Assembly (NCBI GenBank): GCA_001790855.1
Contig: MGDH01000022.1
Location: 121,661 to 185,660 of the forward strand
Source of the DNA: Candidatus Schekmanbacteria bacterium RIFCSPLOWO2_02_FULL_38_14
Lineage (GTDB): Bacteria > Schekmanbacteria > GWA2-38-11
Length of the DNA: 64,000 nucleotides
Reading direction: 5' to 3'
Shown here: piece by piece, positions 42,346 to 46,961 of the stretch
Numbering within the stretch: position 1 is the stretch's first letter
Layout: the number at the start of each line of letters is the position of its first letter
Position numbers and translations under genes: made by a program
Notes under the pieces: generated by a model
What the model was told of the DNA's origin: nothing
The model's database searches: none
What the model saw: only the letters and a program-made list of their open reading frames with translations

Positions 42346-42387
42346 GAAAGGGCTCCGCAGAATGATATTATCCGTGGAGCCCTTTCG
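42346..42387 (-). terminator. Terminator after the small peptide gene
   Basis: Perfect stem GAAAGGGCTCC / GGAGCCCTTTC around a 19-base loop, followed on the minus strand by TTGTTTT. It begins 12 bases after the peptide stop. Confidence 0.85.
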
Positions 42388-42398
42388 AAAATAAAAAC

Positions 42399-42461
42399 TT
42401 AGCAAGAAGCCTTGCACTTACAAGTGATACCTGCTTTTTTTGTTACCTTTCTAATCTTCAT
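42399..42461 (-). CDS. 20-residue Lys/Cys-rich peptide, candidate RiPP precursor
   Basis: Encodes MKIRKVTKKAGITCKCKASC. The start is preceded by AAAGGAGGTGA, a perfect complement to the 16S rRNA tail at correct spacing, so strong translation is expected. Six lysines and one arginine make it highly basic; the three cysteines (14, 16, 20) lie in the last seven residues. It lies 98 bases downstream of the radical SAM/SPASM gene on the same strand and is followed at once by a terminator. The arrangement is that of a ribosomally made peptide modified by a SPASM enzyme, for instance by thioether linkage at its cysteines. That function is inferred. A less likely alternative is a leader peptide attenuating the PAP2 gene downstream. 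Confidence 0.7.
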   Translation of the reverse strand: MKIRKVTKKAGITCKCKASC

Positions 42462-42559
42462 GGAATCACCTCCTTTAATGATTACACAGTTTAACAGTTT
42501 GACCAAGAATTCCGCCTTGTCATAACGAACCTTCGGGTCGGATTGCTCAGCATATTAAA

Positions 42560-43723
42560 CTATAAACTCACTCCAAAAGCAGCGCAGCGGACCAAATCAG
42601 CACCCATCAAATCACCTTCAAGAAACGCCCTGAACCTGCAACCTCCTCTGCAATCTTTCAAATATTCACAGCCACTGCACTTGAGCTCATCAAGTCTAAA
42701 ATGTTTTAACCTCTTCCAACACTCTCCTATGGTATCATTATATATACTGCCCAGAGGTTGGTCAATAAAAAAACTGCACTTGCAAACTCTTCCGTCAGGG
42801 GTAATTGCGCAGAGATGAGAGCCACAGGAGAATTTCCCTGATGATTCGTATAAGCCCGACCCAAACCCATACTTCAAAAACCTGCCTCCTTTTTCAGGAG
42901 ACAGGGAAAAATCAGGATTTGTCTCAAGGTAACCGGAAAAAACCGGGAAATCAACTGACCAGTCCTTTACTCCCATTTTCTTAAACAGCTTTTCCATTTC
43001 GTCAAAATCATCAAGGTTGTACGGATGGATTATTGTCGCAACTGAAAGGTCAATTCCTTCTTTGAGAACATTTTCAGCCCCCCTCATTGCAGCTTTAAAC
43101 ATTCCCCTGCCACGCAGTAAATCATGGGATTTTTCTATTCCGTCTATGCTTATCTGAACCTCCTGGACCTTTAACATCTTAGCTGCCTGAGGAGTTATGA
43201 GGGTCCCGTTGGATAGAAGTATTGAACGGAATTGATATTTGCCAACACCATCATTAAATTTCCAGAATTCCTTATGAAGCAGAGGTTCTCCACCTGAAAT
43301 TATTAATCTCAATCCCTGAAGTCTTTCAAACTGCTCACAAATATCAAAAATTTTCTCTAAACCCAGTTCTTTCTTTTTCTGCCTTCCAAGATAACAGTGC
43401 CTGCATCTGAGATTACATTTATCTGTTATCTGAAGCTCAAGATATCTCAGAGATGGTTTCAACGGCTTTGATAATATTATTTTTCTTTTAGAAGGCTTCT
43501 TATACAGGGTAAGGAGTTTTTCTTCAAAGCAGTATTCAAGGAGCTCCTCATCACTTTTTAAATTGCTTTTCTTGTTTGTACCGTCACAGAGTTTCAGAAA
43601 CTCAAATGCCTCCTGATTAAGCTGGTAAAGCTCATCTCTGTCCCTGTGATACAGAGATGGTCTTTCAAGGTTTTTTAAAGAGCATGGTTTTGATAAAGTC
43701 AGATATTTTTTTTCTGAAGACAT
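42560..43723 (-). CDS. Radical SAM/SPASM peptide-modifying enzyme with PqqD-like N-terminus
   Basis: 387 residues. Residues about 22-78 (LYQLNQEAFEFLKLCDGTN ... LLEYCFEEKLL) resemble a PqqD-type RiPP recognition element. Residues about 92-280 are the radical SAM core with C103, C107, C110 (CNLRCRHC) and ISGGEPL. Residues about 298-385 are a SPASM domain for auxiliary Fe-S clusters: CGSHLC, DGRVCKCSF, CSGCEYLKDCRGGC and a last Cys in DLVRC. These are features of enzymes that install cross-links in peptides. It reads into the 20-residue peptide gene at 42399. A Fe-S and sulfur transfer gene set lies upstream on the same strand. Confidence 0.9.
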   Translation of the reverse strand: MSSEKKYLTLSKPCSLKNLERPSLYHRDRDELYQLNQEAFEFLKLCDGTNKKSNLKSDEELLEYCFEEKLLTLYKKPSKRKIILSKPLKPSLRYLELQITDKCNLRCRHCYLGRQKKKELGLEKIFDICEQFERLQGLRLIISGGEPLLHKEFWKFNDGVGKYQFRSILLSNGTLITPQAAKMLKVQEVQISIDGIEKSHDLLRGRGMFKAAMRGAENVLKEGIDLSVATIIHPYNLDDFDEMEKLFKKMGVKDWSVDFPVFSGYLETNPDFSLSPEKGGRFLKYGFGSGLYESSGKFSCGSHLCAITPDGRVCKCSFFIDQPLGSIYNDTIGECWKRLKHFRLDELKCSGCEYLKDCRGGCRFRAFLEGDLMGADLVRCAAFGVSL

Positions 43724-43849: not shown

Positions 43850-44089
43850 CTACTCGTCAGCAACAAGCTTTTTTACAAACACATGAAACTGGTCATCGGC
43901 TTTTTCTATTTTTAGAAACTGGTTACCGGTGCTTTTACACCATGAAGGCATATCCTTTACAATTCCCTCATCATCTGCAATCACCTCGAGAATCTGTCCT
44001 ACTTTCAACTCCTTCATCTTCTTTGTTGTCAAAAGTATTGGCATTGGACAGTAGAGTCCAACAGCATCTAACTTTTCATCAGCCTCCAT
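43850..44089 (-). CDS. TusA-family sulfur carrier protein
   Basis: 79 residues from ATG 44089, after GAGGAG. Begins EADEKLDAVGLYCPMPILLTTKKMKEL, with the CPxP motif whose cysteine carries persulfide sulfur, and VGQILEVIADD. It accepts sulfur from a cysteine desulfurase; the gene for such an enzyme is nearby at 44846. Confidence 0.9.
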   Translation of the reverse strand: MEADEKLDAVGLYCPMPILLTTKKMKELKVGQILEVIADDEGIVKDMPSWCKSTGNQFLKIEKADDQFHVFVKKLVADE

Positions 44090-44233
44090 ATTGTTCTCCT
44101 CGTCTAACTTTAATTGAAGTCCCAAATCACAAGCATCAAATTTAAAATAAATTTCAAAATCCAAACAATCAACTTATAATTATTTTAGTTATTGAAATTT
44201 TGGCAATTGGGATTTTTTTAGAATTGAATTTTG

Positions 44234-44629
44234 TTATTTGAAATTATTCTTCTGCTTATTTCCCTTATTCTGGTATTCTTCAATCGCTGCTTTTAGTGCA
44301 TCAGCGGCAAGGTTTGAGCAGTGCATTTTTTGTGGAGGAAGTCCGTCTAAAGCTTCAGCTACAGTTGCTTTGGAAATCTTCAGGGCTTCATCAATAGTTT
44401 TTCCTATTACAAGTTCTGTAACCATGGAACTTGTTGCAATTGCGGCACCGCATCCAAAGGTCTTAAACTTTGCTTCAACTATCTTGCCATCTTTTACTTT
44501 AATAAAGAGTTTCATTATGTCCCCGCAGGATGCATTTCCTACTGTTCCTACTCCATCAGCGTCAGTAATCTCACCAACATTTCTGGGATTTTGAAAATGC
44601 TCCATAACTTTTTCAGAATATTTTTCCAT
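44234..44629 (-). CDS. iscU: Fe-S cluster scaffold protein, IscU/NifU N-terminal type
   Basis: 131 residues, begins MEKYSEKVMEHFQNPRNVGEI. The three cluster-ligating cysteines are in GNASCGDIMK, FKTFGCGAAIATSS and PQKMHCSNLAADAL. It receives sulfur from the cysteine desulfurase and builds [2Fe-2S] clusters. 217 bases separate it from the desulfurase gene. Confidence 0.95.
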   Translation of the reverse strand: MEKYSEKVMEHFQNPRNVGEITDADGVGTVGNASCGDIMKLFIKVKDGKIVEAKFKTFGCGAAIATSSMVTELVIGKTIDEALKISKATVAEALDGLPPQKMHCSNLAADALKAAIEEYQNKGNKQKNNFK

Positions 44630-44845
44630 AACATCTATTCCCCTTTCTAACCTTTATCCTGCCGGATTTTATACTTAAATTAAAAGTCTAAATTAAATCC
44701 CTAAAACTATGTAAATCCTAAATTCTTTTTTATAGCTGTAAGCTATAAGTTGTAAGTTGTAAACTTTTTTAAAATTTTAAGACTTTACTTTTAAAACTTT
44801 AATACTTTTGATTAGTTTCTTTTTTACAGCTTATAGCTGTTTTAC

Positions 44846-46024
44846 TCATTTCATCATCTTGGCTTCTTCATAAAGAGGAGACATCTTTCTGAGCCGCTCA
44901 ACAATGGGAGGCAGTATCTGGCAGATATAATCTACATCTTCATCACTGCTTTCAGCACCAAGGCTGAAAAGAAGCGAGCCCTGGGCTATCTCAGGAGCAA
45001 CTCCCATTGCAGTCAAAACATGAGAGGCTTTAAGCGCTCTTGATGTACACGCTGAACCACTGGAAGCAGCAACCCCGTCAATATCCAGGAATAAAAGCAT
45101 TGACTCGCCTTCTACATACTCCACAGAAATATTAACGTTACCCGGAAGCCTTTTTATTTGATGACCATTCAGATATGCGTGGCCAATCTTCGAAAGAATA
45201 CCATTTATAAATTTATCTCTCAGCGCAGTCATTTTTTTTACTCTTCCCGGAATCTCTTCCTTTGCAAGTTCACAGGCTTTACCCATTCCAGCAATTCCGG
45301 CAACATTCTCAGTACCGGCTCTTCTGCCATTTTCCTGAATTCCTCCATCAATAAAAGGAGTAACCCTTACTCCCTTTCTGATATAAATTGCTCCTATCCC
45401 CTTTGGACCGTAGAACTGATGTGCCGCAAGACTAAGCAAATCAACCCCAAGCTCATTGACATTTACAGGAATTGTTCCTGCTGTCTGAACAGCATCGGTA
45501 TGAAAAATAATTCCGGTCTCTTTTACAATTTTGCTTATTTCTCCAATTGGCTCAATGCTCCCAATCTCGTTTGAAGCATGAAGAATTGAGACAAGTATTG
45601 TATCCTTTTTTATTGCTGATTTTACTGCCTGAGGGTCAACCATTCCAAATTTATCAACAGGAAGATAAGTAACTTCAAAGTCTTGTTTCTCCAGACTCTT
45701 TGCTGAATACAAAACCGCGTGATGCTCAATCTGTGAGGTTATTATATGCCTGCCCTTTTTCTGATGGGCAAGAGCAATTCCCTTTAAGGCAAAGTTGTCG
45801 CTTTCTGTCCCTGAAGATGTAAAATAGATTTCCTCAGGCAAAGCGCCTATCAACCCTGCAACCTTCGCTCTTGCTTCATCAACTGCCTGCTTTGGTTTAT
45901 CGCCGAAGTTATGAAGACTTTGGGGATTACCAAAATCTTCTCTTATAAATGGTATCATTGCATCTGCAACTTCAGCCCTTACAGGCGTAGTTGAGGCATA
46001 ATCCATATAAACCTTCCGTTTCAT
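44846..46024 (-). CDS. Cysteine desulfurase, NifS/IscS family, with Gln in place of the PLP lysine
   Basis: 392 residues from ATG 46024, after AAGGAG. Fold type I PLP enzyme; YMDYASTTPVR, the pyridine-binding Asp177 (HTDAVQ) and the catalytic cysteine C326 in SSGSACTSRALK are present. In this family the PLP-binding lysine lies in a SxHK-x-GPKG motif; here the sequence is SLAAHQFYGPKG, so position 203 is Gln. Archaeoglobus fulgidus IscS is a known family member lacking the lysine. It may need a free PLP cofactor or a partner, or act differently. Same operon direction as iscU. Confidence 0.92.
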   Translation of the reverse strand: MKRKVYMDYASTTPVRAEVADAMIPFIREDFGNPQSLHNFGDKPKQAVDEARAKVAGLIGALPEEIYFTSSGTESDNFALKGIALAHQKKGRHIITSQIEHHAVLYSAKSLEKQDFEVTYLPVDKFGMVDPQAVKSAIKKDTILVSILHASNEIGSIEPIGEISKIVKETGIIFHTDAVQTAGTIPVNVNELGVDLLSLAAHQFYGPKGIGAIYIRKGVRVTPFIDGGIQENGRRAGTENVAGIAGMGKACELAKEEIPGRVKKMTALRDKFINGILSKIGHAYLNGHQIKRLPGNVNISVEYVEGESMLLFLDIDGVAASSGSACTSRALKASHVLTAMGVAPEIAQGSLLFSLGAESSDEDVDYICQILPPIVERLRKMSPLYEEAKMMK

Positions 46025-46053
46025 CACTTCCACTCCTTAACCCCTTGAACCCT

Positions 46054-46491
46054 CTAAATATAAAGCTTTGTATCCGCATCAGATGCAAGCTTTAATATTG
46101 ATGGCAAACCTGTTATTTCATCTACTTTCTTAAGGACTTCCTCTTTTCTCAGACCCATGAATTCCACATTTGCACTGCAGGCTAAAAATTTTAATGTTCC
46201 AAGGCTCTTAACCGTATCAATCATTTCAGTTATTGAGTTAGGATTCATTGCCTTCATCTTCTGGTACACATCCTTACCATTATTTTGAAACTCCGCAGAC
46301 ATATCTTCTATGTCTGTCTTCCCCTCAACAAACTTCTTTAAAGCCTCAAAAAACAGAACCACATAAACTTCCTCTCCCATTGCCGCTGCTGTTACAGCAA
46401 TAGTAGCAGTCTGATAAAGCCTGTCAAAGGTACTGCTGTGAGCAAAGATTACAAGCCTTCTGCGTTTTTTTTCCATCTTTTCTTCTGCCAT
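46054..46491 (-). CDS. DsrE/DsrF-like peroxiredoxin-family sulfur protein
   Basis: 145 residues from ATG 46491. Alpha/beta fold start RLVIFAHSSTFDRLYQTATIAVTAAAMGEEVYVVLFFEAL and the single conserved cysteine in LKFLACSANVEFMG, in the place of the sulfur-carrying residue of DsrE2-like proteins. Located 29 bases upstream of the cysteine desulfurase, so part of the same sulfur-transfer set. Confidence 0.8.
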   Translation of the reverse strand: MAEEKMEKKRRRLVIFAHSSTFDRLYQTATIAVTAAAMGEEVYVVLFFEALKKFVEGKTDIEDMSAEFQNNGKDVYQKMKAMNPNSITEMIDTVKSLGTLKFLACSANVEFMGLRKEEVLKKVDEITGLPSILKLASDADTKLYI

Positions 46492-46650
46492 CAAAATCCT
46501 ATTACAATTCCAAAAATTTTATAGAAAACCCTGTACTTATGACTACAAAGATTAATAATCAAACCCTCCAGTATTTGCAGCCACAAGCTTTAACCTGCGT
46601 ATCAGGGTTCTGTTTGCAGTCCCCGTAATCGAAAACCTATAAAAGAATTT

Positions 46651-46869
46651 TTAAACTGAAACAACCTCCTCAATCTCGGGAACTTCTTCTTTTATTGCCC
46701 TTTCAACTCCCATTTTCAGGGTCATCTGCGCTCCGGGGCATCCGGCACACGCTCCTATGAGCTTAACCTTCACCTTTTTGTCCTCAATACCTATTAGCTC
46801 TATATCCCCGCCATCCATCTGTAGCTTTGGCCTTATCTTATCTATAACAGCCTGCACTTTATCTAACAT
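46651..46869 (-). CDS. Nfu-type Fe-S carrier (NifU C-terminal domain)
   Basis: 72 residues from ATG 46869 after AGAGGTG. DKIRPKLQMDGGDIELIGI and the cluster motif CAGCPGA. It holds and hands on [4Fe-4S] clusters to client enzymes; the radical SAM enzymes in the region would be such clients. Confidence 0.93.
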   Translation of the reverse strand: MLDKVQAVIDKIRPKLQMDGGDIELIGIEDKKVKVKLIGACAGCPGAQMTLKMGVERAIKEEVPEIEEVVSV

Positions 46870-46961
46870 TTTCAATCACCTCTCTTTCAGAAATTGAACC
46901 TTCCGTCTATTGATTTAATACTGTTTTAAATTATTTTTTCAATGCAAATCCTTATTTAGCA

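Follow-up and report, generated by a model that had tools for sequence, protein, structure and literature searches.

Does a frame of 20 codons lying behind a radical SAM/SPASM enzyme gene encode a precursor peptide, and what would such a pair of genes make? The question arises in 64,000 nucleotides of a Candidatus Schekmanbacteria contig (the window, by which we mean the whole stretch analysed), where a sequence-only reading had proposed a minimal RiPP system of no described family. No Pfam or NCBIfam model was found for the peptide or the enzyme family, and in the literature searched (mostly open papers, with a few subscription ones) none was found describing the peptide, the enzyme family or the system. 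Neither CKC nor Nitrospira appears in the main text of a network survey of SPASM enzymes (PMC9062424).

The peptide gene

The peptide ORF (MKIRKVTKKAGITCKCKASC; 42399-42461, minus strand) begins with ATG at 42461-42459 and ends with a stop codon at 42401-42399. A ribosome binding site (AAAGGAGGTGA; 42466-42476, minus strand) stands 4 bases 5′ of the ATG, which lies 98 bases past the stop codon of the enzyme gene on the same strand. Direct reading confirms the earlier description of a 20-residue frame with a perfect ribosome binding site at this distance. Directly 3′ of the gene is an intrinsic terminator hairpin (42346-42386, minus strand; -26.6 kcal/mol, z = -6.2 against shuffled sequences) with a T-rich tail, in agreement with the strong terminator previously noted here, and terminator-like hairpins occur within 110 bases of 44 of 73 homologous peptide genes. 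No RNA family was found at the locus by an Rfam search, the 98-base gap between the two genes folds no better than its shuffles, and an NCBIfam scan of four peptides matched no model. Inside this gap 28 bases (42520-42547, including CTTCGGGTCGGATTGCT) recur in a hairpin-rich stretch at G000:C11:13519, and are probably a dispersed intergenic repeat. The 3′ part of the enzyme gene holds TTGACC-17-TATAAT (42737-42765; a consensus match only, at 11 of 12 positions), a putative promoter that could drive the peptide alone.

Homologous peptides are usually found within about 100 bases of the enzyme gene, on the same strand and with a ribosome binding site of their own. They share the 20-residue consensus M-x-I-[KR]-K-V-x-K-K-x-x-x-T-C-K-C-K-x-S-C and have no Tyr, no conserved Glu and, as a rule, three Cys; residues 1-9 are the probable recognition part and residues 13-20 (TCKCKASC in the window) the probable core. 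Among 72 distinct genes I3 and K5 are each kept in 70 and T13 in 69, and K15, K17 and the terminal Cys20 equal C14 and C16 in their invariance, which for the C, K and S among the final seven residues is partly by construction, these having been in the search pattern for some of the 72 genes. The loci found through the enzyme (15, plus 24 more) are free of this bias, and all carry the identical C-K-C-K-x-S-C end, as the sequence-only reading had expected of its TCKCxxSC.

An unconserved frame, which that reading had named as evidence against a precursor, is not what we find. In the 72 homologues codon positions 1 and 2 reach up to 2 bits and position 3 is much lower, while the flanks hold 0.08-0.12 bit per base, excepting the ribosome binding site, the only conserved stretch of the upstream flank (about 1 bit per base vs 0.12 elsewhere). 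The peptide gene is under purifying selection at the protein level. Because the reversed control of the peptide-end pattern gave zero matches in every genome searched and conservation is at the level of codons, a chance frame is very unlikely. The short frame precedes other genes in some genomes (a TPR lipoprotein gene, then ispE), as a cis-acting leader or arrest peptide might, but in the window it ends the transcript, with the strong terminator next, and the downstream genes vary among genomes; we regard a leader, an arrest peptide or a chance frame as extremely improbable.

The enzyme and its N-terminal domain

The enzyme gene (42560-43723, minus strand) encodes 387 amino acids, comprising an N-terminal domain (residues 1-85 approximately), a radical SAM core (approximately 95-255; Pfam Radical_SAM, 3.2e-19) and a seven-Cys SPASM region (300-380). 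The radical SAM motif is C103xxxC107xxC110, with GGEP also present, and the SPASM pattern, C300-x10-G-x4-C316 / C349-x2-C352-x5-C358-x3-C362 / C380, fits two auxiliary clusters. The enzyme has the defining Cys features of the radical SAM/SPASM class: all ten motif Cys (three radical SAM and seven SPASM) are invariant in an alignment of 18 orthologues, which upholds the earlier assignment from CxxxCxxC and a SPASM cysteine set. Pfam Radical_SAM matches 18 of 18 family members, and Pfam SPASM stays below threshold on the window enzyme (19.3 vs 21.5 bits). A further Cys, C65 in the N-terminal domain (codon 43529-43531), is invariant in 18/18 orthologues and lies outside every known cluster motif.

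Orthologous enzymes, mostly of Nitrospirota, are 39-50% identical to that of the window and sit on long tree branches. The closest solved relative is the sactisynthase SkfB (profile 1.8e-24; fold 1.2e-12), followed in the fold search by SuiB (a Lys-Trp cyclase) and anSME, and a plasmid search returned distant SPASM relatives only. The radical SAM core scores equally against models of MftC, WgkB (the WgK-linking maturase), NirJ/AhbD and the sactisynthases. With this enzyme every NCBIfam model stays far below its cut-off; the NirJ/AhbD haem enzyme models (TIGR04051/4054/4055/4545) give 102-112 bits vs cut-offs of 500-650, the best of all being NirJ2.

The N-terminal segment had been called PqqD-like, a description that stands only in part. 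Pfam PqqD matched 0 of 18 family members, and profile comparison (hhalign) of the domain with two MftB sequences found no match; a weak fold comparison does place RiPP recognition elements (RREs; definition from PMC12710340) nearest. The structure models are of low confidence (pLDDT 65 and 70), that of the N-terminal 90 residues (pLDDT 70) having the order E-E-E-E-H-H-E. The nearest solved folds are TbiB1 bound to a lasso leader peptide, ThcOx, the TruD-type heterocyclases and SuiB, all RRE-bearing, with weak E-values of 0.02-0.6 (best 0.023), and a viral fold search with the domain was empty. From its modelled fold, the domain is a probable RRE.

Co-occurrence and gene neighbourhood

A scan of public genome contigs with the enzyme alone yielded 13 full relatives, all labelled Nitrospirae, Nitrospiraceae or Thermodesulfovibrionales with the exception of one labelled uncultured bacterium. 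Twelve of these have a 20-residue peptide ending in TCKCKxSC at 57-98 bases past the aligned enzyme end, with a clear ribosome binding site in nearly all; in the 13th (L034) two other genes intervene and the peptide is 2.2 kb downstream. All 15 initial enzyme-first loci, L034 included, have the conserved peptide, and in a further enzyme-first set it is linked in 24 of 30, the remaining six genomes having it elsewhere, so that the short Cys-containing ORF anticipated beside homologues of the enzyme is indeed there. The window's own small phylum (four genomes covered) has two other carriers, with peptides VKIRKIAKSASITCKCKSSC and VKIRKISKSSASTCKCKSSC; G174 and G312 are carriers in a third small phylum, and in G126 the pair is split between contigs.

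When 386 varied genomes were searched with the peptide pattern first, eight matched (reversed control, none), and the orthologous enzyme is present in seven, all but G218. Rejected as peptide genes were the match in G218, antisense inside a large ORF of a genome from which the orthologous enzyme is absent, and second matches (TGCAAATGCAAATGTTGTTGTTGA) in G518, G658 and G684, which overlap a conserved aspartokinase-like gene in another frame.

Among 326 Nitrospirota genomes drawn evenly from the phylum, the enzyme (called at E below 1e-60) is present in 101 and the peptide pattern in 99: both in 95, enzyme only in 6, peptide only in 4 and neither in 221. Fisher's p is 3e-69, a value overstated by the shared descent of the genomes. 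Two observations are free of this effect: in 30 of the 95 genomes with both the two genes are unlinked and still co-occur, and the presence or absence of both matches within families f262, f270, f274 and f276. The covariation of peptide and enzyme that the sequence-only reading had looked for is thus found even where the genes are apart. Homologues lacking the peptide, which it had set down as contrary evidence, amount to 6 of 101, three of them at a contig edge (G396, G417) or in an incomplete genome (G422, 65% complete). The others (G572, G676 and G692; L157-L159) belong to one genus with a divergent enzyme, in which the peptide core may be a variant one; a loose pattern for variant peptides was too noisy in the exception genomes to discriminate. 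As for the peptide-only genomes, in G688 part of the enzyme is present, at the end of a contig, and in G485, G666 and G684 no orthologous enzyme was detected.

The peptide is tied to the enzyme family, and the pair is kept together in about a third of the sampled Nitrospirota species and in members of two other small phyla. A conserved short precursor gene tied to a modifying enzyme is one defining feature of a two-gene radical SAM RiPP system and is present here; modification of the precursor, the other, is predicted. The peptide is very probably the substrate of the enzyme. Some genomes have two peptide copies (L043/L164 in G174, L134 in G688, and also G405 and G414). The second copy in G174 (MKIRKVSKKLSGTCKCKSSC) stands without an enzyme gene, and the two in G688 are 1.5 kb apart, with enzyme fragments.

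As context, the first gene upstream of the enzyme in the window encodes a TusA-like sulfur carrier (43850-44164, minus strand; Pfam TusA, 3.1e-25), preceded by an iron-sulfur assembly block of NifU, NifS, DsrE-like and Nfu-like genes (44234-46875, minus strand; NCBIfam NifU 209 bits, NifS 548 bits). All three carriers in this phylum (the window, L040 and L041) have the order (nfu,) dsrE-like, nifS, nifU, tusA, enzyme, peptide on one strand. This sulfur/iron-sulfur context (43850-46875) does not surround the Nitrospirota copies.

The position of the pair behind nfu-dsrE-nifS-nifU-tusA suits a different reading, in which the peptide would be a micro-protein binding metal or sulfur through its CxCxxxC end and the linked enzyme would have another target, for instance a tetrapyrrole, as NirJ/AhbD do. 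CKCKxSC is a plausible soft-metal site, and of all NCBIfam models NirJ2 scores highest with the enzyme, but its 112 bits fall far short of the cut-off (500). The modelled N-terminal fold, moreover, resembles leader-binding domains, and an enzyme and its substrate would be predicted to co-occur as strictly as the peptide does with this one SPASM family, also where the genes are unlinked. We consider the micro-protein improbable.

Around 68 loci the recurrent neighbours are what we take, from their translations, to be genes for a TPR lipoprotein, ispE, prs, rplY and pth; as housekeeping genes these were rejected as a partner operon. No peptidase or protease, exporter or immunity gene recurs around the 68 loci, in keeping with the earlier remark that no protease or transporter gene is near. 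An exported antimicrobial or signal, such as a sactipeptide or ranthipeptide bacteriocin, might be suspected from a small, basic, Cys-rich peptide and an enzyme similar to sactisynthases. Exporter, protease and immunity genes would then be expected to recur, but they do not; the core is undiversified across three phyla, and the peptide is unlinked from the enzyme in 30 genomes, which makes export as an antimicrobial or signal very improbable. Use within the cell is the most likely role, because protease, exporter and immunity genes are lacking at these loci and the core is invariant across three phyla, and we hold an intracellular, housekeeping-like role of the product to be quite likely.

A proposed product and its known counterparts

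A two-gene RiPP-type system making a conserved intracellular product is a likely explanation of these observations taken together. The leader, MxI(K/R)KVxKK, would dock on the RRE-like N-terminal domain of the enzyme and contribute an extra beta strand to it. The radical SAM cluster would then generate a 5′-deoxyadenosyl radical, which would abstract hydrogen from one residue in the TCKCKxSC core, and the two auxiliary SPASM clusters might help to join Cys sulfur to the carbon radical, forming one or more thioether rings. The product would be used in the producing cell as a redox or metal cofactor, or as a sulfur-handling peptide, and not as an antibiotic.

That Cys of the peptide are modified is probable; a thioether, suggested by the similarity to SkfB, is the likeliest single product, and for it specifically we see the case as evenly balanced. 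The conserved Lys could be the modified residues instead. K15, K17 and Cys20 are invariant to the same degree as C14 and C16, and the equal scores of the MftC, WgkB, NirJ/AhbD and sactisynthase models would also fit modification without a Cys thioether: a C-C bond at Lys, decarboxylation of the terminal Cys (like the oxidative decarboxylation by MftC of the C-terminal Tyr of MftA), or excision of a small cofactor from a peptide that serves only as its scaffold, as happens for PQQ. Sulfur chemistry is, however, suggested by an eight-residue stretch with three invariant Cys, and the nearest solved structure, by profile and by fold, is a sactisynthase; there is also no partner oxidase or peptidase near the genes, unlike in PQQ or mycofactocin. 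Modification of this non-thioether kind is on balance unlikely.

With its core unchanged across three phyla and tied to the enzyme even when the genes are apart, the peptide resembles a cofactor precursor more than an antibiotic. We tentatively put forward, at slightly less than even weight, an undescribed ribosomal cofactor, in which one SPASM enzyme would convert the TCKCKxSC peptide to an intracellular redox or metal/sulfur-handling cofactor by means of two genes. A large share of the Nitrospirota, including Thermodesulfovibrionales, would have retained it, as would members of two further phyla. To our knowledge ribosomally made cofactors are few (PQQ and mycofactocin), and this one, if real, would be comparable in kind and need two genes only. 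The pair appears, judging from sequence, to be a new and widespread two-gene form of radical SAM RiPP systems with a predicted, undescribed product. The peptide is too short for ordinary gene calling, and has probably gone unnoticed in roughly one in three of the sampled Nitrospirota species. At 20 residues and one enzyme the system is cheap to reconstitute, and its chemistry and role are directly testable.

In its mode of working the system is like mycofactocin, PQQ and SCIFF, although the tested defining features of each are absent here. Mycofactocin (MftA, MftB, MftC) likewise has a short precursor with a nearly invariant C-terminus, a PqqE-like SPASM enzyme, no transporter or immunity genes and co-occurrence across phyla; from the same kind of grounds it was argued to be an internal electron carrier (Haft 2011, PMC3023750). 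MftA, however, ends in CGVY where the peptide here ends in TCKCKxSC, and MftB is a separate chaperone with MftD-F following, whereas here there are two genes and the probable recognition domain is fused. Neither a linked dehydrogenase nor MftB-F genes were found near the loci, and the window enzyme scores 98 bits vs a cut-off of 265 with the mycofactocin model TIGR03962.

PQQ (PqqA, PqqD, PqqE) shares a very short precursor and a SPASM enzyme with two auxiliary clusters; its PqqD-type binding domain has a probable counterpart here. PqqA has only some 22-24 residues, so that the sequence-only reading overstated matters in calling the present peptide far shorter than usual precursors. The core of PqqA is Glu and Tyr without Cys, whereas the Glu-x3-Tyr of PqqA is absent here, as are counterparts of PqqB, C and F nearby, and the PQQ model TIGR02109 gives 65 bits vs a cut-off of 381.

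The SCIFF/ranthipeptide enzymes (CteB, PapB) are SPASM enzymes too, fused to an RRE (a probable one here) and accompanied by a small, conserved peptide rich in Cys. A SCIFF precursor carries six Cys over some 45 residues, as against 20 residues and, as a rule, three Cys here, and the CteB structure (5wgg) matches the window enzyme weakly and in the core only. The sporulation killing factor system comes nearest in structure, SkfB, the best solved relative, acting on Cys of a RiPP precursor. The factor is exported, comes from a multi-gene operon and has a longer precursor than the 20-residue peptide, and the profile match of SkfB does not extend to the end of the CxxCx5CxxxC block, all of which the window enzyme has.
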